A stretch of 64,000 nt of DNA from Burkholderiales bacterium (GCA_020854035.1 JADZGE010000087.1:1-64000); one strand, 5' to 3'; shown: positions 21,611 to 31,948, counted from the stretch's first letter. A program made the numbers and translations. The notes: generated by a model from the sequence alone, not told the origin.

Positions 21611-23014
21611 TCAACAGGCTACGGGCTTCTCTTCTCCGAACCAGGCCGTCGCGGAAATCGACACCTCCACACCGGGAACAGGGGCCGGGTGCGGCACTTC
21701 CAGGATCGTCATCGCGGGGCGCCATCGTCCGAACGCCCCGGCAAGCAGGCGCTCCACGGATGTCACGCGTTCGATGTCCCGCAGATAGACGGTGAGGTGC
21801 GCGACGCGGTCGAGACCGTGACCTGCATCCTGCAGGAGCCGCTTCAGCGCGTGAAGAATCGCGGCGCACTGCAACGCGACGGTATCGCGCGCCAGGTCCC
21901 GGGCGACCCGGGCACGGACCGCGGCGGGAAGCGCTTTCAAGGAATCGACGGGCGCTCCCGAGTCGCCCACGCCGAGAAGACCCGAAAGGAACGCAAGCCC
22001 GCCCGCCTCGACCAGTGCGCTCATGTGCGCGGGAGCGTGCCAGTCCCGGGGGTTGAAGATCCTGCGCTTGGCGCTCCGGCCCGGGAGTATCGCGGTGGGT
22101 TCGATCTCGATCAACGTACCCTTGTGTCCCACCTCGTTCGCCTCGATGACCGTCAATGCCGGCGGGTCGGACCCGAAGAAGCGTTCGTGCACGCGGTGGA
22201 AAGTCGGGAAATCGCGGATGTCCTGGAGATATACGACGAGATTCAGTATCGAGGCGAGCGAAGAGCCGATCGCTTCGAGATGCCGGCGGATCACGTCGTA
22301 GGTAAACCACGTTTGCGCCGCGATGGGGCCGTTGCGGGTGTCCTCGTGGCTGCGTCCCACGCGCAGGAAGCGCCCCGCCTCCGGGATGTCCTCGTAATTG
22401 CGAATGAGGGGTGCGCCCGGTTGCGCGGTGTCGATCGGGATTTGTCCGGCGACGAAAAGATAGTGGCCGGCGCCGATCACGTGCGAAAAAGTCGCGGGCG
22501 CGGCGTACGACGCCGCGCCGGTCAGGACCTCGCGGCGCCCGAGCGTGCGTTCCGCCGCCGGGCGCAGCCCCACCGCGTCGATGCACAGGCGCGCCCGGCC
22601 GGTGGGCTCGAACCGTCCCAGGCCGACCGCGGTGCTCGAGGGCGGCGCCGTTTCATGGTGCCTGCGGACCCGGTCGAACACCGGGAAAAACCGCTTGTCG
22701 CGCTGATACACGTGGTAACGCAGCAGATGGGCGAACGTCGCGCCTTCGCGCCGGAACAAGGAGCGGTATTGCCGGTAAATCGCGATCGCCTGCGCGCCGA
22801 CCGGCGCTTCCATCGTGCTCACCCAGGCAAATGCGTTTCCCGGCCCCGGAGCTTCTCCCGCGACATCCGAATAACTCGAACAGAATCTCCGGCCGTCGGC
22901 CGCCCTGCCCATCTGGCCGCTGAAGAACAGGAACGGCCCGGCGGCGACACAGGCCGGCGCGCGCGACCGCGATGACGAGGATCGCCCGGACATTTCCGCC
23001 GGCCGCCTATTCAA
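21611..23014 (-). CDS. Protein with three tandem RidA (YjgF/UK114)-like domains
   Basis: Three RidA-like blocks: GPFLFFSGQMGR...FAHLLRYHVYQRD; HYLFVAGQIPID...LASILNLVVYLQDIRDF; GLAFLSGLLGVG...LDRVAHLTVYLRDI. Confidence 0.78.
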   Translation of the reverse strand: MNRRPAEMSGRSSSSRSRAPACVAAGPFLFFSGQMGRAADGRRFCSSYSDVAGEAPGPGNAFAWVSTMEAPVGAQAIAIYRQYRSLFRREGATFAHLLRYHVYQRDKRFFPVFDRVRRHHETAPPSSTAVGLGRFEPTGRARLCIDAVGLRPAAERTLGRREVLTGAASYAAPATFSHVIGAGHYLFVAGQIPIDTAQPGAPLIRNYEDIPEAGRFLRVGRSHEDTRNGPIAAQTWFTYDVIRRHLEAIGSSLASILNLVVYLQDIRDFPTFHRVHERFFGSDPPALTVIEANEVGHKGTLIEIEPTAILPGRSAKRRIFNPRDWHAPAHMSALVEAGGLAFLSGLLGVGDSGAPVDSLKALPAAVRARVARDLARDTVALQCAAILHALKRLLQDAGHGLDRVAHLTVYLRDIERVTSVERLLAGAFGRWRPAMTILEVPHPAPVPGVEVSISATAWFGEEKPVAC

Positions 23015-23447
23015 CCGCCTGCTTGAGACGTTCCGGTTCGATGATGGCTTCCACCTCGATCTCCACCATCGCGTCGGGATGGCCCAGCCGGGAGACCTCG
23101 ATCAGGACGCTCGGCGGGCGGTTGTTCCGGAAGAACTTGAAGCGCTCGTCCGAGACCTTGTAGTACTCGACGATATTGGTGACGTACGTGGTCGTGCGCA
23201 CCACGTCGTCGAAGGTCGCGCCGGCATGCGCGAGACCGATCTCCACGTTTTCGCAGGTCCTGCGGAGCTGCGCGCGCAAGTCGCCTTTCCCGACGATCTC
23301 CCCGCTCGGCATGCGGGCCATCTGGCCCGCGACGTAAACGTGGGCATGGTCGGCGCCGTGGATCGTGGCGAGCGGAGAATACAGCAAATGACCGTTTTCG
23401 AACCGCCGCCACATGTCCCCGGGTTGCATGAATTGCCGCTTGATCAT
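23007..23447 (-). CDS. RidA family protein (single domain)
   Basis: AHVYVAGQMARMPSGEIVGKGDLRAQLRRTCENVEIGLAHAGATFDDVVRTTTYVTNI...MVEIEVEAI. Confidence 0.9.
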   Translation of the reverse strand: MIKRQFMQPGDMWRRFENGHLLYSPLATIHGADHAHVYVAGQMARMPSGEIVGKGDLRAQLRRTCENVEIGLAHAGATFDDVVRTTTYVTNIVEYYKVSDERFKFFRNNRPPSVLIEVSRLGHPDAMVEIEVEAIIEPERLKQAVE

Positions 23448-23693
23448 GAAGCCATTCTCCCCTTTCGTGAAGTGCCGCCCGCAGTCGAGAGGCAGCCGCG
23501 ACGACACCGGACACCGTATGAGGGGACTATACACCCGCGCAATGGGGGGAGGTAAGCGTCGAGCGGCGCGTATCGCCTGCTGGAGCTCCGAGGCGCCGGC
23601 ACGGAAGAAGCGGGCCGGTGCGGCACGACCGAAGACCCCGCACGTTGCATCACGTTCCGGGAGCTTCGCGGGAAAGCGCGCGATGTACCCCGG

Positions 23694-24656: not shown

Positions 24657-24765
24657 CAGCAGATGCAGCGACACTTACCTTTCAACGAATACGGGAGAGA
24701 ACCTGCCGCCGGCAATGGAGGGGGACGGGCAACGGGTGAAATCCGGGTGTCGCGGAACCGCCGTG

Positions 24766-25266
24766 ATGAAGGTTGCAGCGCTCATCAAACAGATCCCCGC
24801 CGTCGAGTCGCTGAAGCTCGATCGGGAAGGGCGTCTCGTCCGGGCGGGCGTGGTGCTCGAAATGAACGCATACTGCCGCCGCGCCGTGTCGCTCGCGATC
24901 ATGCTGAGCGCAAGGACAGCGGGGCGCTGCACCGTGCTCACGCTCGCGCCGGAATCCGGCGAGGAAGTGATCCGCGATGCGCTGGCGGCGGGTGCCGACG
25001 ACGGCATCCTGATTTCCGACCCGGCCTTTTCCGGCTCCGACACGCTCGCGACTGCACGTGCGCTCGCCGCCGCGCTGCGGAAAATCGATGCCGTCGACCT
25101 GGTGACGTGCGGGCTCAATTCCGTGGACGCCGATATCGGGATCGTCGGCGACTGGCGCGATGTCGTGCCGCTGCTCGCGCCGCGGCTCGTTTCCCGCGAC
25201 CTGACCGCGTCGGCGAGACCTCGCGCTCACGCGTGCCGCGCCGAACCGTCTCGCTCGGGGGCATGA
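24766..25266 (+). pseudogene. Truncated electron transfer flavoprotein beta subunit
   Basis: MKVAALIKQIPAVESLKLDREGRLVR...VVLEMNAYCRRAVSLA...TLAPESGEEVIRDALAAGADDGILI...VDLVTCGLNSVDADIG; similarity fades into low-complexity Arg-rich sequence and stops; no etfA follows. Confidence 0.65.
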
Positions 25267-25731: not shown

Positions 25732-25851
25732 CCCGCGGCCCCGCGCGCGTGACCGTGCTCGACGAGATGGTGGAGGATGTGGAACACGGTCATGCGCGCC
25801 CCGGGCGCAGCAGGGCGATCGAACGAGGAATCGGGCAGAGAGGAGGTCGTC

Positions 25852-26829
25852 ATGATGCGTGGAACCGTCGTGGTATCCGTACTATCATTGCTGATTGCGC
25901 CGGCCGTACCGTCGTTCGGCGCGGCACCGGGCTACCCCGAGAAGCCGGTGACGATCGTGGCGCCGTTCGCGCCGGGTGCGGCCGATACCGTTGCGCGTTT
26001 ACTGGCGCAGCACATCGGAACGGCGCTCGATCAGCGCTTCATCGTGGAGAACCGGGCGGGAGCGAGCGGGGAAATCGGGGCGGTGTACGTCAAGCGCGCG
26101 AAGCCGGATGGCTACACCGTGCTCTACGGCACCGCGAGCGGGATGTCGGTCAATCCGCAGATCAGGAAGGTGGACTATGACCCGCGACGCGACTTCACGA
26201 ACATCGCCTTGATCGGCGTGGCGCCGTACGTGATCGGGGTCAACGCTTCGTTGGGAATCGGTTCGGTCGCCGAGCTCATCAAGTACGCGAAGTCGAATCC
26301 GGGACCGCTCAAGCTGGGCAACGCGGGCACGGGCTCGTTGAGCGATCTCGCCGCCGTTCTGTTCGGCCAGCGCGCGGGTCTCGACGTCCTGTCGGTGCCG
26401 TTCAAGGGCACCGGCCCGGCGGCGACCGCGATGCAGGGCGGAGAGACGCAGGCGCTCATTGCCTCTTACGTGAGCTTCATCGCGGGCATGCAGGCAGGCA
26501 GAGCCAGAGTACTTGCCGTCGCGGCCTCGGAGCGCCTGGAGATCGCGCCCGACGTGCCGACGGCCGAGGAGGCCGGACTGCGTGATTTCGACGTGAGTCA
26601 GTGGTGGGGCCTGTACGGCCCGGCGGGCGTTCCGAGACCCGTCGTGGAAAAGCTCAACGCCGCGATGAACGAAGTGCTGCGCGGTGACGAGGTGAAAAAG
26701 CGCCTGTCGGCGCTTGCGGTACGCCCGGTCACCGGAAGCCCCGACGATCTGACCGCCTACCTCGAGAAGGAGTACAGGAAGTGGGGTGATGTCATTCGTG
26801 CGCAGAAAGCGGCGCAGAAACCGCAATAA
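25852..26829 (+). CDS. Bug/TctC substrate-binding protein (close paralogue of 32065-33033)
   Basis: YPEKPVTIVAPFAPGAADTVARLLAQHIG, IVENRAGASGEIG, KPDGYTVLYG. Confidence 0.94.
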   Translation: MMRGTVVVSVLSLLIAPAVPSFGAAPGYPEKPVTIVAPFAPGAADTVARLLAQHIGTALDQRFIVENRAGASGEIGAVYVKRAKPDGYTVLYGTASGMSVNPQIRKVDYDPRRDFTNIALIGVAPYVIGVNASLGIGSVAELIKYAKSNPGPLKLGNAGTGSLSDLAAVLFGQRAGLDVLSVPFKGTGPAATAMQGGETQALIASYVSFIAGMQAGRARVLAVAASERLEIAPDVPTAEEAGLRDFDVSQWWGLYGPAGVPRPVVEKLNAAMNEVLRGDEVKKRLSALAVRPVTGSPDDLTAYLEKEYRKWGDVIRAQKAAQKPQ

Positions 26830-27010: not shown

Positions 27011-28027
27011 ATGACCGAGCATCTGGCCCGGGCAGGCGAGCTTCTTCGCGAATCCATCGTGATCGACGGACTGGGGGGCGCGGTCGTGCATCCGAGCCCT
27101 CACGTCGCCGAGGGAACCTACGAGCAATCGCTGCTCGGTTACGGTTACACGGCGATCAACGTCACGCTCGTCTCGGAGCCGACCTACACGCCCACCTTCG
27201 ACGAGGTACTCGCCGCGATCCACGAGAATCTCGTCAACTTCGAGATCAATCCGACGGCCCGCCACGTCGAGCAAGCCGCCGACATCCTGGAGGCGAAGAA
27301 GAACAACCGGCTCGGCGTGATCTTCGGTCTGCAAAGCGCGAGTTGCATCGGGCAGGATCGTAATCGCGTTCGCATACTGCACAAGCTGGGTTTGCGGATA
27401 CTGCAGCTCACCTACATGGAGCGGAATTTCCTCGGCGACGGCTGCCTGGAGCCCGAGAATCGCGGTTTGACCCATTTCGGCATCCAGGTGGTGCGGGAAT
27501 GCAATCGCCTCGGCATACTCGTGGACTGCTCGCACGTGGGGATCCGGACAACGCTCGATGCGGCGCGGCATTCGGCGCAGCCGATCGTCATCTCGCATAC
27601 CGCGGCGCGGGCGCTCAACGACAATCCGCGCTGCGTGACGGACGATCAGATGAAAGCCGTCGCCGAACGCGGCGGCGTGGTCGGCATCACCCCGTTTGCC
27701 TCGCTCATCCGCTCCGACCGCCAGCCCACGATCGAGGATTACGTCGATCACTTCGACCATGCGCTGAACGTGATCGGCCCGGATCACGTCGGGTTCGCGA
27801 CCGACATGAACGACGGCAGGACCAGGGTGAACTGGGTCACGCCGTGGTACTACCCGGAAATGACGAGGGGCGCGGATTACGTGACGCGGCGCACGGTCGG
27901 CTTCACCCGGAAGTCCGATATCGTGAACATGGTTGCCGCCTTCGTGAAGCGGGGCTACGACAGGGAGCTCGTCGGGAAACTGCTGGGCGGCAATTTCCTG
28001 AGGGTCATGCAGGCCGTGTGGAAATGA
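27011..28027 (+). CDS. Membrane dipeptidase (M19) family protein, divergent metal site
   Basis: ILVDCSHVGIRTTLDAARHSAQPIVISHTAARALNDNPRCVTDDQMKAVAERGGVVGI...VGFATDMNDG. Confidence 0.85.
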   Translation: MTEHLARAGELLRESIVIDGLGGAVVHPSPHVAEGTYEQSLLGYGYTAINVTLVSEPTYTPTFDEVLAAIHENLVNFEINPTARHVEQAADILEAKKNNRLGVIFGLQSASCIGQDRNRVRILHKLGLRILQLTYMERNFLGDGCLEPENRGLTHFGIQVVRECNRLGILVDCSHVGIRTTLDAARHSAQPIVISHTAARALNDNPRCVTDDQMKAVAERGGVVGITPFASLIRSDRQPTIEDYVDHFDHALNVIGPDHVGFATDMNDGRTRVNWVTPWYYPEMTRGADYVTRRTVGFTRKSDIVNMVAAFVKRGYDRELVGKLLGGNFLRVMQAVWK

Positions 28028-28098
28028 ATGGCGCGCAAGACGTGGATCACCACGGACAGCGCGGGTCGCAGGCAAAGGGAGCGTAGCGAGGAGAACAG

Positions 28099-29346
28099 AT
28101 GGCCACCGCCTCTTCGACGTTGTTGCGCGCGGCGCGGGTGATCGACGGGAAAAGCGACTTGCCGCTGCAGAACCATTCCGTCCTCGTCCGGGGCGATCGC
28201 ATCGGCGGGATCTTTTCCGGGGGCAAGGAGCCGCCCGCGGATACGGTGATCGACTGTACCGGCATGACGGTGTTGCCCGGCCTGATCGATGCCCACGTGC
28301 ACCTCGCGTTTCGGTCCGTTCCGGACCGACTGAGGTACCAGGTGACGGCGTCACCCATGTTGAAGGCGTTCTACGCCGCGAAGCACGCGAAGCTCACGCT
28401 CGATGCGGGCTTCACGACGGTGCGCACGATGGGCGGCGAGGAATGCATGGCGGTCAAGCAGGCGATCGAGGCCGGCGTGATCGAGGGGCCGCGGCTGCTC
28501 GTATCCGGCATCGTGGACATGACGTGCGGGCATATCGATCTCATTCGTCATCCCGCACTGCCCCGCGCGCCCGAAGACACGGCGGACGGCGTGTGGGAGG
28601 TGAGAAAGCGCGTGAGGCAGCACGTGAGGAATGGCGCGGACTTCATCAAGATCTGTACGAGCGGCGGCGTGACATCCGCGATCGACGAGCCCGACTGGCG
28701 CAACTACACGCTGGAAGAGATCATGGCGATCACCGACGAAGCGCACGCGATCGGCAGGCGGGTGGCCGCCCATGCTCACGGGAATCTCGGCATCAAGAAT
28801 GCCGTCCGCGGCGGCGTCGACACGATCGAGCACGGCATCTTTCTCGACGAGGAAGCGATCGACATGATGCTGAAGGCCGGCAGTTACCTGGTGCCGACCC
28901 TGACAGTGGGGCACGCCGAGATGGTGCGCGGCAGGGAGTCGGGGTTGTCCGAGCATGCGCTCGAGAAAGCGCACCGGGTCCATCCGATACGGCTGCGCAG
29001 CGTGAGAATGGCGTGCGATGCCGGCGTGAAGATCGTGTGCGGCACGGATACGGCATCGATCGCGCTTCACGGAGAAAACGCCAAGGAACTCGAGCTGCTG
29101 ATGCAGGACGGCGGCCTCACCGCGATGCAGGCCATCAGGGCCGCGACGTCGATGGCCGCGGAGGCGATCGCGATGTCGGACAGGATCGGCACGATCGAGC
29201 CCGGCAAGTACGCCGATCTGCTGGTCATCGACGGCGATCCGCTTTCCGATATCCGGGTGTTCCAGGACCGCGGCAGGATCAAGGCCGTCTACAAGGGCGG
29301 AAAAATCATCGCTCCGACGCCGCTGCCCGAGCGGATCATCTGGTGA
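28099..29346 (+). CDS. Metal-dependent amidohydrolase (imidazolonepropionase/prolidase-like)
   Basis: GLIDAHVHLAF, FIKICTSGGVTS, AHAHGNLGIKNAVRGGVDTIEHG, CGTDTAS, GKYADLLVIDGDPL. Confidence 0.92.
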   Translation: MATASSTLLRAARVIDGKSDLPLQNHSVLVRGDRIGGIFSGGKEPPADTVIDCTGMTVLPGLIDAHVHLAFRSVPDRLRYQVTASPMLKAFYAAKHAKLTLDAGFTTVRTMGGEECMAVKQAIEAGVIEGPRLLVSGIVDMTCGHIDLIRHPALPRAPEDTADGVWEVRKRVRQHVRNGADFIKICTSGGVTSAIDEPDWRNYTLEEIMAITDEAHAIGRRVAAHAHGNLGIKNAVRGGVDTIEHGIFLDEEAIDMMLKAGSYLVPTLTVGHAEMVRGRESGLSEHALEKAHRVHPIRLRSVRMACDAGVKIVCGTDTASIALHGENAKELELLMQDGGLTAMQAIRAATSMAAEAIAMSDRIGTIEPGKYADLLVIDGDPLSDIRVFQDRGRIKAVYKGGKIIAPTPLPERIIW

Positions 29347-29368
29347 AACGCGCCGCCGCGAGCGGGAG

Positions 29369-30349
29369 ATGCGCATGGAAGGACCGATCACCGTCGATAA
29401 GGTCGTCCTGAAGCCCGGGGAAAAGATCAGGACCTGGCTCGACATCGCGGAGGATTTTTCGGGTCCTATCCGCATCCCGTTTCTGGGCGCGAGCGGAACG
29501 AAACCCGGCAAGTGCTTTTACGTCGTCTCGGGACTGAACGGGGACAACTACGCGGGCATGGATGCCATCCTGAGGGTGTTTCGCGCGCTGGATCCCGGGA
29601 CGATGCGCGGTCAGGTCCTCGCGATACCCATGCTCAATACGCCCGCGTTCGATCGGATCTCCAAGGCGGGCGCGGATGGTCTCATGCTCAATCGCACCTC
29701 GGGCGGGCGCAGGAGCGGCTACCTCACGGAACGAATCGCCCATTTCGTGCTCGAGAAGATCGTGAGCCACGCGGACTACGCGCTGGAGATCATCACGGGC
29801 GCGGCCCACGCGATGACCGCCTTCGTCTCCCTGGTCGGGGAGGGCGGGGCGCCGGAGCACACCGAAGGCTACCTCGACTACGCCAGGGCTTTCGGCTGCG
29901 ATCTCCTGTGGACGGGATCGGCCTCCCCGACGGTGCTGCGCAACGCCGTCGCGAAAATGGGGGTGCCGGTCATCATGACCGAGCTTGCGAGCGAGGGATA
30001 CCGCGACGAAACCAGTGTCGAATATGAAGTCCGCGGGATCCGGAATCTCCTCGGTTTTCTCGGTATCATCGAGCACGAGCCCGCCGACCTTCCTTCCCGC
30101 TACCGTTTCTTCGATGGTTTCTTCCTGCACGCGGACAACGGCGGTATCTTCAGGAGCGAAGTCCGACTCCGCCAGAAAGTGGCGAAGGGCGAGCCGCTCG
30201 CCCGCATCAGCGACCTGCTGGACAACGAAGTCGAGGTCGTGAGAGCCCCTCACGATGGCATCGTCATCGGCTATCGGTCCATTCCCCGCATTTATCCGGG
30301 AGACTGGAGCGTCTGGGTGGGCAATCTACGGGATCGAGGGGAGCCGTGA
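29369..30349 (+). CDS. Succinylglutamate desuccinylase/aspartoacylase (AstE/AspA) family protein lacking canonical Zn ligands
   Basis: FYVVSGLNGDNYAGMDAILRVFRAL...RGQVLAIPMLNTPAF...C-terminal GGIFRSEVRLRQKVAKGEPLARISDLLDNEVEVVRAPHDGIVIG. Confidence 0.8.
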   Translation: MRMEGPITVDKVVLKPGEKIRTWLDIAEDFSGPIRIPFLGASGTKPGKCFYVVSGLNGDNYAGMDAILRVFRALDPGTMRGQVLAIPMLNTPAFDRISKAGADGLMLNRTSGGRRSGYLTERIAHFVLEKIVSHADYALEIITGAAHAMTAFVSLVGEGGAPEHTEGYLDYARAFGCDLLWTGSASPTVLRNAVAKMGVPVIMTELASEGYRDETSVEYEVRGIRNLLGFLGIIEHEPADLPSRYRFFDGFFLHADNGGIFRSEVRLRQKVAKGEPLARISDLLDNEVEVVRAPHDGIVIGYRSIPRIYPGDWSVWVGNLRDRGEP

Positions 30350-30439: not shown

Positions 30440-31948
30440 GTGGAATCGAAGCTCAGCGGATTTCTCTCCGAGCCTCTGGCGCCGGAGATCCAGGAGAACC
30501 TCCTTGCGCCGGCGCTCAAGCGGCTTTTCCCGGCGTCCCTCCCGCCGATCACCGCGATAAACAAGGCGCATCTCGTGATGCTGGCGCGGACCGGGATCGT
30601 CGATGCGGCGCTTTGCCGCAGGCTCGCCGCGACCATACTCGAGCTCGAGCGCGAAGGCCCGGATGCGTTCAAGCTCGACGGCGCGCTGGAAGACGCGTAC
30701 TTCAATTACGAAGCGGAATTCAACAGGCGCCTCGGCGCCGATGTCGGCGGTTATCTCCATGTTGCGCGCAGTCGCAACGACATCAAGGCGACCCAGGACC
30801 GCATGCGGGCGCGGGACTACGCGTTGCGGATCATGCAGGGGCTGCTGCGACTGCGGGCGCGGATTCACGAGCGGGGCGCGCTCTTCGCGGACGTGGTGAT
30901 GCCCGGTTACACGCACATGCAGCCGGCTCAACCCGTCACCTTCGGCTATTACCTGCTCGGCGTCGCGCATGCCCTGGAGCGTGATTTCCAGCGCCTGGGC
31001 GAGTGCTACGCGCGGCTCAATCAGTGTCCGATGGGCGCCTGCGCGCTTGCGGGAACGTCGTTCCCGATCGATCGCGCCATGACGGCCGACCTGCTCGGCT
31101 TCGACGAGGTCATGCCGCACGCCCAGGACGCGGTCGCCACGCGCGAGAGCGTCATCGAGCTCGTGGGTCATTGCGCGCTGCTCGCCGGCACGATCGGCCG
31201 GCTCGCGCAGGACTTCTACAACATGACCACGCACGAATTCTCGACGCTCCACCTGCCGGACAGCGTCGCGGCGACCTCGAGCATCATGCCGCAGAAGAAG
31301 AACATGGCCGTGCTCGAGTGCCTCAAGGGGCGCGTCGCACCCCTGACCGGCGCGCTGGTGACGGCGCTCGCCGCGTACAAGGCGACGCCCTACACGCACA
31401 TGCAGGATGGCCACAACGAGGGCCTGCGCTGGGCATGGGATGCCCTGGAGGAAAGCGTTGCCGCGGTCACCCTGTGCCAGGTCGTGGTCGAAAGGGCGAC
31501 CCCCGACAGGGAGCGCATGTATGCGCTGGTACGCGCCAATTTTTCGACCGTCACGGACCTTGCCGACCTGCTGGTGAAGGATGCCGGACTCTCGTTCCGG
31601 GAAGCGCACCATGTCATCGGCCGCGTCGTGCGCCTCGCGCTCGCGCAGGGCCTCACCGCGGACCGGATCTCGCCCGAGCACATCGCCCGGGCCGGACGGG
31701 AAATCCTGGGCCGGGCCGTGACGCTGGACGAGGCCGCGCTGCGCGACGGTCTGGACCCGGGCCGCGCCGTCGAACGCCGGGCGGGAAGCGGCAGCCCGGC
31801 GCGCAGCGACCTCACGGCGATGCTCGCGACGCTCTCGGCCCGGCTCGACGCCGACGCGACGAGGACCGAATCGCGTCGCGCGAAGCTCGACGCCGCCAAT
31901 GCGCGTCTCGAGGAGGCAATTCGGTCACTGGCCACCGGCTTGAAGTGA
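30440..31948 (+). CDS. Argininosuccinate lyase/fumarase superfamily lyase
   Basis: ARSRNDIKATQDRMR, PGYTHMQPAQPVTFGYYLL, TSSIMPQKKN. Confidence 0.88.
   Translation: MESKLSGFLSEPLAPEIQENLLAPALKRLFPASLPPITAINKAHLVMLARTGIVDAALCRRLAATILELEREGPDAFKLDGALEDAYFNYEAEFNRRLGADVGGYLHVARSRNDIKATQDRMRARDYALRIMQGLLRLRARIHERGALFADVVMPGYTHMQPAQPVTFGYYLLGVAHALERDFQRLGECYARLNQCPMGACALAGTSFPIDRAMTADLLGFDEVMPHAQDAVATRESVIELVGHCALLAGTIGRLAQDFYNMTTHEFSTLHLPDSVAATSSIMPQKKNMAVLECLKGRVAPLTGALVTALAAYKATPYTHMQDGHNEGLRWAWDALEESVAAVTLCQVVVERATPDRERMYALVRANFSTVTDLADLLVKDAGLSFREAHHVIGRVVRLALAQGLTADRISPEHIARAGREILGRAVTLDEAALRDGLDPGRAVERRAGSGSPARSDLTAMLATLSARLDADATRTESRRAKLDAANARLEEAIRSLATGLK

Follow-up and report, generated by a model that had tools for sequence, protein, structure and literature searches.

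An M19-like protein without the dinuclear metal site and an AstE/AspA-like protein without zinc ligands in a Burkholderiales gene cluster

Members of peptidase family M19 are described here with the ligand numbering of renal dipeptidase (His20, Asp22, Glu125, His152, His198, His219, Arg230, and Asp288), in which a His and an Asp hold the first metal, a Glu bridges the two metals, and a pair of His residues belongs to the second. Arg230 of renal dipeptidase binds the substrate carboxylate. Amidohydrolase-superfamily members with a single metal are well known, and human DPEP3 is an M19-fold protein that has been reported as inactive. A solved structure of an M19-like protein from Pseudomonas aeruginosa, PDB 2i5g, exists without a function assigned in its records. 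The AstE/AspA family includes the N-acetyl-diaminobutyrate deacetylase DoeB and carries an H/E/H set of zinc ligands together with a catalytic Glu. In the argininosuccinate-lyase superfamily, the EDDS lyase of Chelativorans BNC1 catalyzes both the formation and the cleavage of N-substituted aspartates (PMC12363623). Proteins resembling members of these families are encoded in a 64,000-nucleotide stretch of DNA from a Burkholderiales bacterium (GCA_020854035.1 JADZGE010000087.1:1-64000), hereafter called the window, whose first letter is position 1 for all coordinates.

The M19-like protein of 338 amino acids (27011..28027, + strand) is followed on the same strand by an amidohydrolase (28099..29346, +), an AstE/AspA-like protein of 326 amino acids (29369..30349, +), and an argininosuccinate-lyase-superfamily protein (30440..31948, +), with gaps of 71, 22, and 90 bp. 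The first three open reading frames were open and intact. A TctC solute receptor gene (25777..26829, +; PF03401, 185 bits) lies upstream of the M19-like gene on the same strand. The family placement of both altered proteins held in Pfam searches, the M19-like protein matching PF01244 at 267.8 bits against a curated cut-off of 26, and the AstE-like protein matching PF24827 at 55.5 bits against a cut-off of 25. The amidohydrolase between them (PF01979; best PDB match 3mtw, Cc2672) resembles the Xaa-Pro and Arg-Lys carboxypeptidase group. As had been claimed for it earlier, it keeps its metal ligands (H66xH68, K184, H225 and H227 of an HAH motif, H245, and D317). The closest solved relative of the downstream lyase-like protein is EDDS lyase, to which 475 residues could be aligned, with the SRN and SSIMPQKKN motifs retained. 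Its catalytic loop reads KKNMA instead of KKNPD.

Several other features of the window were recorded. TctC-type solute receptor matches occurred at very high density, in twelve stretches of the 64 kb. A truncated ETF beta-like open reading frame (24715-25266; PF01012, 183 amino acids, with the match stopping at residue 142), flanked by the LysR gene on one side and the cluster on the other, looks like a remnant. Divergent from the cluster, a region on the minus strand (21611-23534) encodes a Rid-family protein (23007-23534; TIGR00004) and an adjoining longer open reading frame with putative Rid repeats, assigned by reading. Rid proteins hydrolyze imines and enamines. No flavin amine oxidase gene was found in the window, and the contig's closest DAO gene lies at a distance of about 50 kb.

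Alignment of the M19-like protein with a canonical member from the same class (L182) gave DGLGGAV for DGHNDLP, FGLQSA for LGIEGG, LTY for LTH, DCSH for DLAH, SHT for SHA, RC for RN, and TDMN for GDFD. Four residues are replaced: both first-metal ligands, the bridging Glu, and His152. Leu21 and Gly23 stand in place of His20 and Asp22 (codons 21-23, LGG; 27071..27079, +), Gln108 in place of Glu125 (27332..27334, +), and Tyr135 in place of His152 (27413..27415, +). The second-metal His pair and the equivalents of Arg230 and Asp288 are kept as His175 (27533..27535, +), His196 (27596..27598, +), Arg207 (27629..27631, +), and Asp265 (27803..27805, +), and Arg207 is invariant in the aligned relatives. 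The original prediction, that the early His/Asp pair and the bridging Glu were missing while the later His, His, and Asp remained, was thus confirmed. In an AlphaFold2 model of the protein (pLDDT 92), the residues at the ligand positions lay on barrel strands or directly behind them. A Foldseek search with this model returned 2i5g first and then true dipeptidases at query TM-scores of 0.78-0.86, so that the model gave no indication of displaced ligands. A shift of the canonical ligands to other positions was also unsupported by the alignment with L182. Sequencing error in the M19 gene was ruled out, since orthologues with 80%, 66%, and 63% identity carry identical substitutions.

The same replacements were found far beyond the window. 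With each species represented by a single genome, a profile scan yielded 588 relatives, and Gln occupied the bridging position in all 80 of the genome relatives that were fetched; the HxD ligands were absent from every one of these 80 whose N-terminus was covered. These Gln-type proteins occur in Pseudomonadota, Chloroflexota, Acidobacteriota, Actinomycetota, Verrucomicrobiota, Spirochaetota, Deinococcota, and Bacillota, and in a haloarchaeon found through plasmid records. In a maximum-likelihood tree, ten Glu-type (canonical) rows were separated from 52 Gln-type rows by a single change, with support of 88/91. The window protein belongs to the Gln-type clade both by its tree placement and by its residues (Gln at the bridging position, Tyr at His152, no HxD pair, and the retained His/His/Arg/Asp). 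Among 40 aligned members Gln108, His175, His196, Arg207, and Asp265 are invariant, Tyr135 and Asn139 are nearly so, and position 135 is Tyr or Phe throughout the clade, which thereby has a fixed alternative pocket of Gln108, Tyr/Phe135, His175, His196, Arg207, and Asp265. In 94 sampled genomes of the class, four of seven good-length M19 matches were of the Gln type, including that of the window. Loss of the ligands is old and family-wide, not local to the window, and defines a clade that spans many bacterial phyla and haloarchaea.

The window lineage is under strong purifying selection. Comparison with the 80% orthologue gave dN of 0.13, dS of about 2.5, and dN/dS of about 0.05, with dS near saturation, and comparison with the 66% and 63% orthologues gave dN of 0.23 and 0.28, respectively, with dS of about 2. 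A distinct Gln-type subgroup with the motifs DAL-TP and ITQAADM (L038-L045 and L225-L231) regularly adjoins TctC receptors in the bacterial family of the window. The clade is already visible in public data but is filed under the dipeptidase name; here it emerges as one coherent group, its pocket replaced, within a known fold family. In the literature collection searched, no paper was found on the missing metal site of the clade or on its function, and searches there on PA5396, 2i5g, and M19 pseudoenzymes returned nothing useful.

The M19-like protein would be functional and belong to an old clade, derived from M19, in which the dinuclear zinc site was abandoned and a different pocket became fixed in its place. 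It most likely works without a dinuclear metal, with His175, His196, and Asp265 serving in acid/base chemistry or holding at most one metal. By analogy with Arg230 of renal dipeptidase, Arg207 may hold the carboxylate of the substrate, which would be an N-substituted amino acid, or an imine derived from one, in a catabolic pathway. A doubtful but serious alternative is that the Gln-type proteins are still metallohydrolases, in which a single metal sits on His175 and His196 with Gln108 or Asp265 and an unusual substrate is hydrolyzed. Invariance of the canonical site's two His residues and its Asp would fit such an arrangement, for which the single-metal members of the superfamily offer a precedent, but neither the HxD pair nor the bridging carboxylate is left, Gln binds metal weakly, and His152 has also become Tyr or Phe.

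Recurring partners of the Gln-type genes were sought in eight plasmid and 80 genome neighborhoods. A flavin amine-oxidoreductase-type gene lay within 5 kb of 47 of 95 Gln-type loci and of none of 11 Glu-type (canonical M19) loci; these counts ignore shared ancestry, so that the link to flavin enzymes is a lead and not a test. Such a gene is absent from the window cluster and from all seven further Gln-type loci of the same bacterial family. The closest orthologues outside that family, from Pusillimonas (L101) and Candidimonas (L102), adjoin a DAO-family gene resembling D-amino-acid dehydrogenase. In Burkholderiaceae, Grimontia, and Halomonas the partners were the dimethylglycine demethylation genes DUF5943, dgcA, dgcB, and ETF. 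The same arrangement has been described for Vibrio natriegens and P. aeruginosa, where the Gln-type gene beside dgcAB is called pepD (PMC12093977). The partner in Paracoccus was a carnitine-type cluster, and in Chloroflexota and Acidobacteriota it was an FAD enzyme of the N-methyl-tryptophan/sarcosine-oxidase type whose score reaches or comes near the NCBI cut-off for N-methyl-tryptophan oxidase. Agrobacterium and its relatives had an N-monooxygenase-like flavoprotein, a DsbA-fold isomerase, and a polyamine-type ABC transporter as partners. A conserved alphaproteobacterial operon (L094, L096, L098, L136, L138, L141, L146, L168, and L179) was also observed, consisting of an N-monooxygenase-like flavoprotein, an HCCA-isomerase-like protein, a Gln-type M19 protein, and a polyamine-type ABC transporter. 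No dominant partner emerged from the neighbor families checked at Gln-type loci without flavin enzymes.

The second altered protein has a different history. In the AstE-like protein the zinc ligands H/E/H are replaced by Asn57, Asn60, and Ile142: codons 57-60 read NGDN instead of HGDE (29537..29548, +), and codon 142 encodes Ile instead of the third-ligand His of DLH (29792..29794, +). Asn108-Arg109 and Glu205 (29981..29983, +) are kept, Arg109 and Glu205 being the equivalents of the substrate Arg and the catalytic Glu, the latter invariant in the aligned relatives. The complete H/E/H set and the catalytic Glu were present in 81 of 82 aligned AstE relatives, and the remaining one was short of the third His only, which bears out the claim that the HxxE motif and third ligand had been lost from the window protein. 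In one relative (L022:1501-2418), DIRTG replaces DLHTG, converting the third-ligand His to Arg, and HGDE is kept. The NGDN motif was found in none of the 82 aligned relatives and in none of the class, order, family, and phylum samples. No relative above 33% identity was found in these overlapping samples of 274 class, 249 order, 74 family, and 399 phylum genomes (about 1,000), in genome contigs, or in plasmids; plasmids gave best matches of 28-29% identity, genome contigs gave no close relative, and viral contigs gave one weak partial match. The TIGR02994 (DoeB) model scored 81.6 bits, far under its cut-off. The sequence alignment around the motifs was gap-free, and the AlphaFold model, built on two relatives only, reached a pLDDT of 35. 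The loss thus appears to be an orphan, lineage-specific change. Sequencing error seems unlikely as its source, since the frame is open and the three ligands were substituted at separate sites.

Decay of the gene could also account for these changes, if it were a pseudogene whose active-site differences are neutral drift. No orthologue was found, and eight of 21 near-invariant columns are altered, all three ligands among them, so that divergence goes beyond the ligands alone. Against old decay argue the 326-codon open frame and a third-position GC of 0.80, close to the 0.82-0.87 of the operon neighbors, and structural glycines, Arg109, and Glu205 are retained; we regard decay as quite unlikely. 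The AstE-like protein may instead represent a separate, lineage-specific divergence from a zinc deacylase with the scaffold, Arg109, and Glu205 kept, and it probably binds a related carboxylate ligand or performs non-zinc chemistry.

Both proteins could alternatively be non-catalytic binding or regulatory subunits (pseudoenzymes) of a catabolic cluster. The absence of every zinc ligand from the AstE-like protein and of three from the M19-like protein would suit such a role, as would the precedent of DPEP3. The M19 clade, in contrast, shows no drift but fixed, specific replacements in its pocket, a pattern more in keeping with catalysis, or with the binding of a specific ligand, than with a scaffold role, and a pseudoenzyme role for the two proteins is considered unlikely.

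The original prediction described the two altered genes as adjacent and suggested a co-evolved subfamily pair. An intact amidohydrolase gene separates them, and the pairing was contradicted at several points. The M19 change is family-wide, the AstE change was present in no other searched genome, and M19 orthologues occur without an AstE neighbor. Neither an AstE gene nor an intact amidohydrolase gene adjoined the 80%, 66%, and 63% M19 orthologues in the DNA examined. Gln-type M19 and NGDN-type AstE genes were not found together elsewhere in the genomes searched, and co-occurrence of the two metal-less proteins was rejected. Only one further locus with Gln-type M19 and AstE genes as neighbors was found, on a Chloroflexia contig (L147:904-4166), where a peptide-binding-protein gene and two tandem Gln-type M19 genes precede an AstE gene with intact ligands (HGEE and DLH). 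This contig, together with the common strand and short gaps in the window, might suggest that both losses arose as a co-evolved pair in one pathway, but the AstE protein of L147 retains its ligands, the closest M19 orthologues (L057, L101, and L102) lack an AstE neighbor, and an NGDN-type AstE is missing from the class, order, family, and phylum samples. Such a pair is very improbable. Because the M19 loss is ancient and widespread and the AstE-like loss a lone case, the metal sites were not lost together; the losses combine one inherited state with one lineage-specific change. The earlier suggestion of non-hydrolytic or repurposed chemistry is reasonable for the M19-like protein, as a member of a conserved clade without the dinuclear site.

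The reading we tentatively prefer, at a little under an even chance, is that the cluster combines an M19 enzyme that lacks a dinuclear site and has been repurposed for N-substituted amino acids with a separately diverged AstE-fold protein. By analogy, the EDDS-lyase-like protein downstream would be consistent with a cluster for N-substituted amino acids, although its KKNMA loop indicates that it is not a canonical member itself. A broader and improbable proposal is that the Gln-type clade is a large unrecognized family, misannotated as dipeptidases in many phyla, whose members act, without metal or at least without a dinuclear site, on the imines or hemiaminals that arise when flavin enzymes oxidize N-methyl amino acids; the AstE-like protein would have become metal-free independently, in a related pathway. 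PF01244 fails to distinguish true dipeptidases from the Gln-type proteins, which are named dipeptidase or pepD in public records and in a recent paper (PMC12093977) despite missing the residues by which that chemistry is defined. Because Gln-type genes lie in operons of well-studied bacteria for the catabolism of glycine betaine, carnitine, and N-methyl amino acids, their role is directly testable. The AstE-like case warns against naming a deacylase from a domain match alone.

Comparison with the known systems places the cluster as follows. The best solved relative of the lyase-like protein, EDDS lyase (6g3d; PMC12363623), has Gln159 at a position occupied in the window protein by His, as in argininosuccinate lyase. 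The AstE-like protein shares PF24827 and the Arg and catalytic-Glu equivalents with DoeB (6twl and 6twm) and is 25-33% identical to canonical AstE/AspA relatives, but lacks all three zinc ligands of that family. The M19-like protein shares with renal dipeptidase (1itq), Sco3058 (3id7), and GliJ (5lwz) a common fold (query TM-scores of 0.83-0.85), PF01244, and the equivalents of His198, His219, Arg230, and Asp288. Equivalents of His20, Asp22, Glu125, and His152 are missing, and it should therefore not be named a dipeptidase. Its best match in both sequence and fold is 2i5g, an "amidohydrolase" of the same clade with about 29% identity, which has DGL for DGH and GFQNA for GVEGG and retains the same His/His/Arg/Asp. 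Relatives in the 2i5g branch adjoin dgcAB (L099), whereas the window gene adjoins TctC, amidohydrolase, AstE-like, and argininosuccinate-lyase-like genes.
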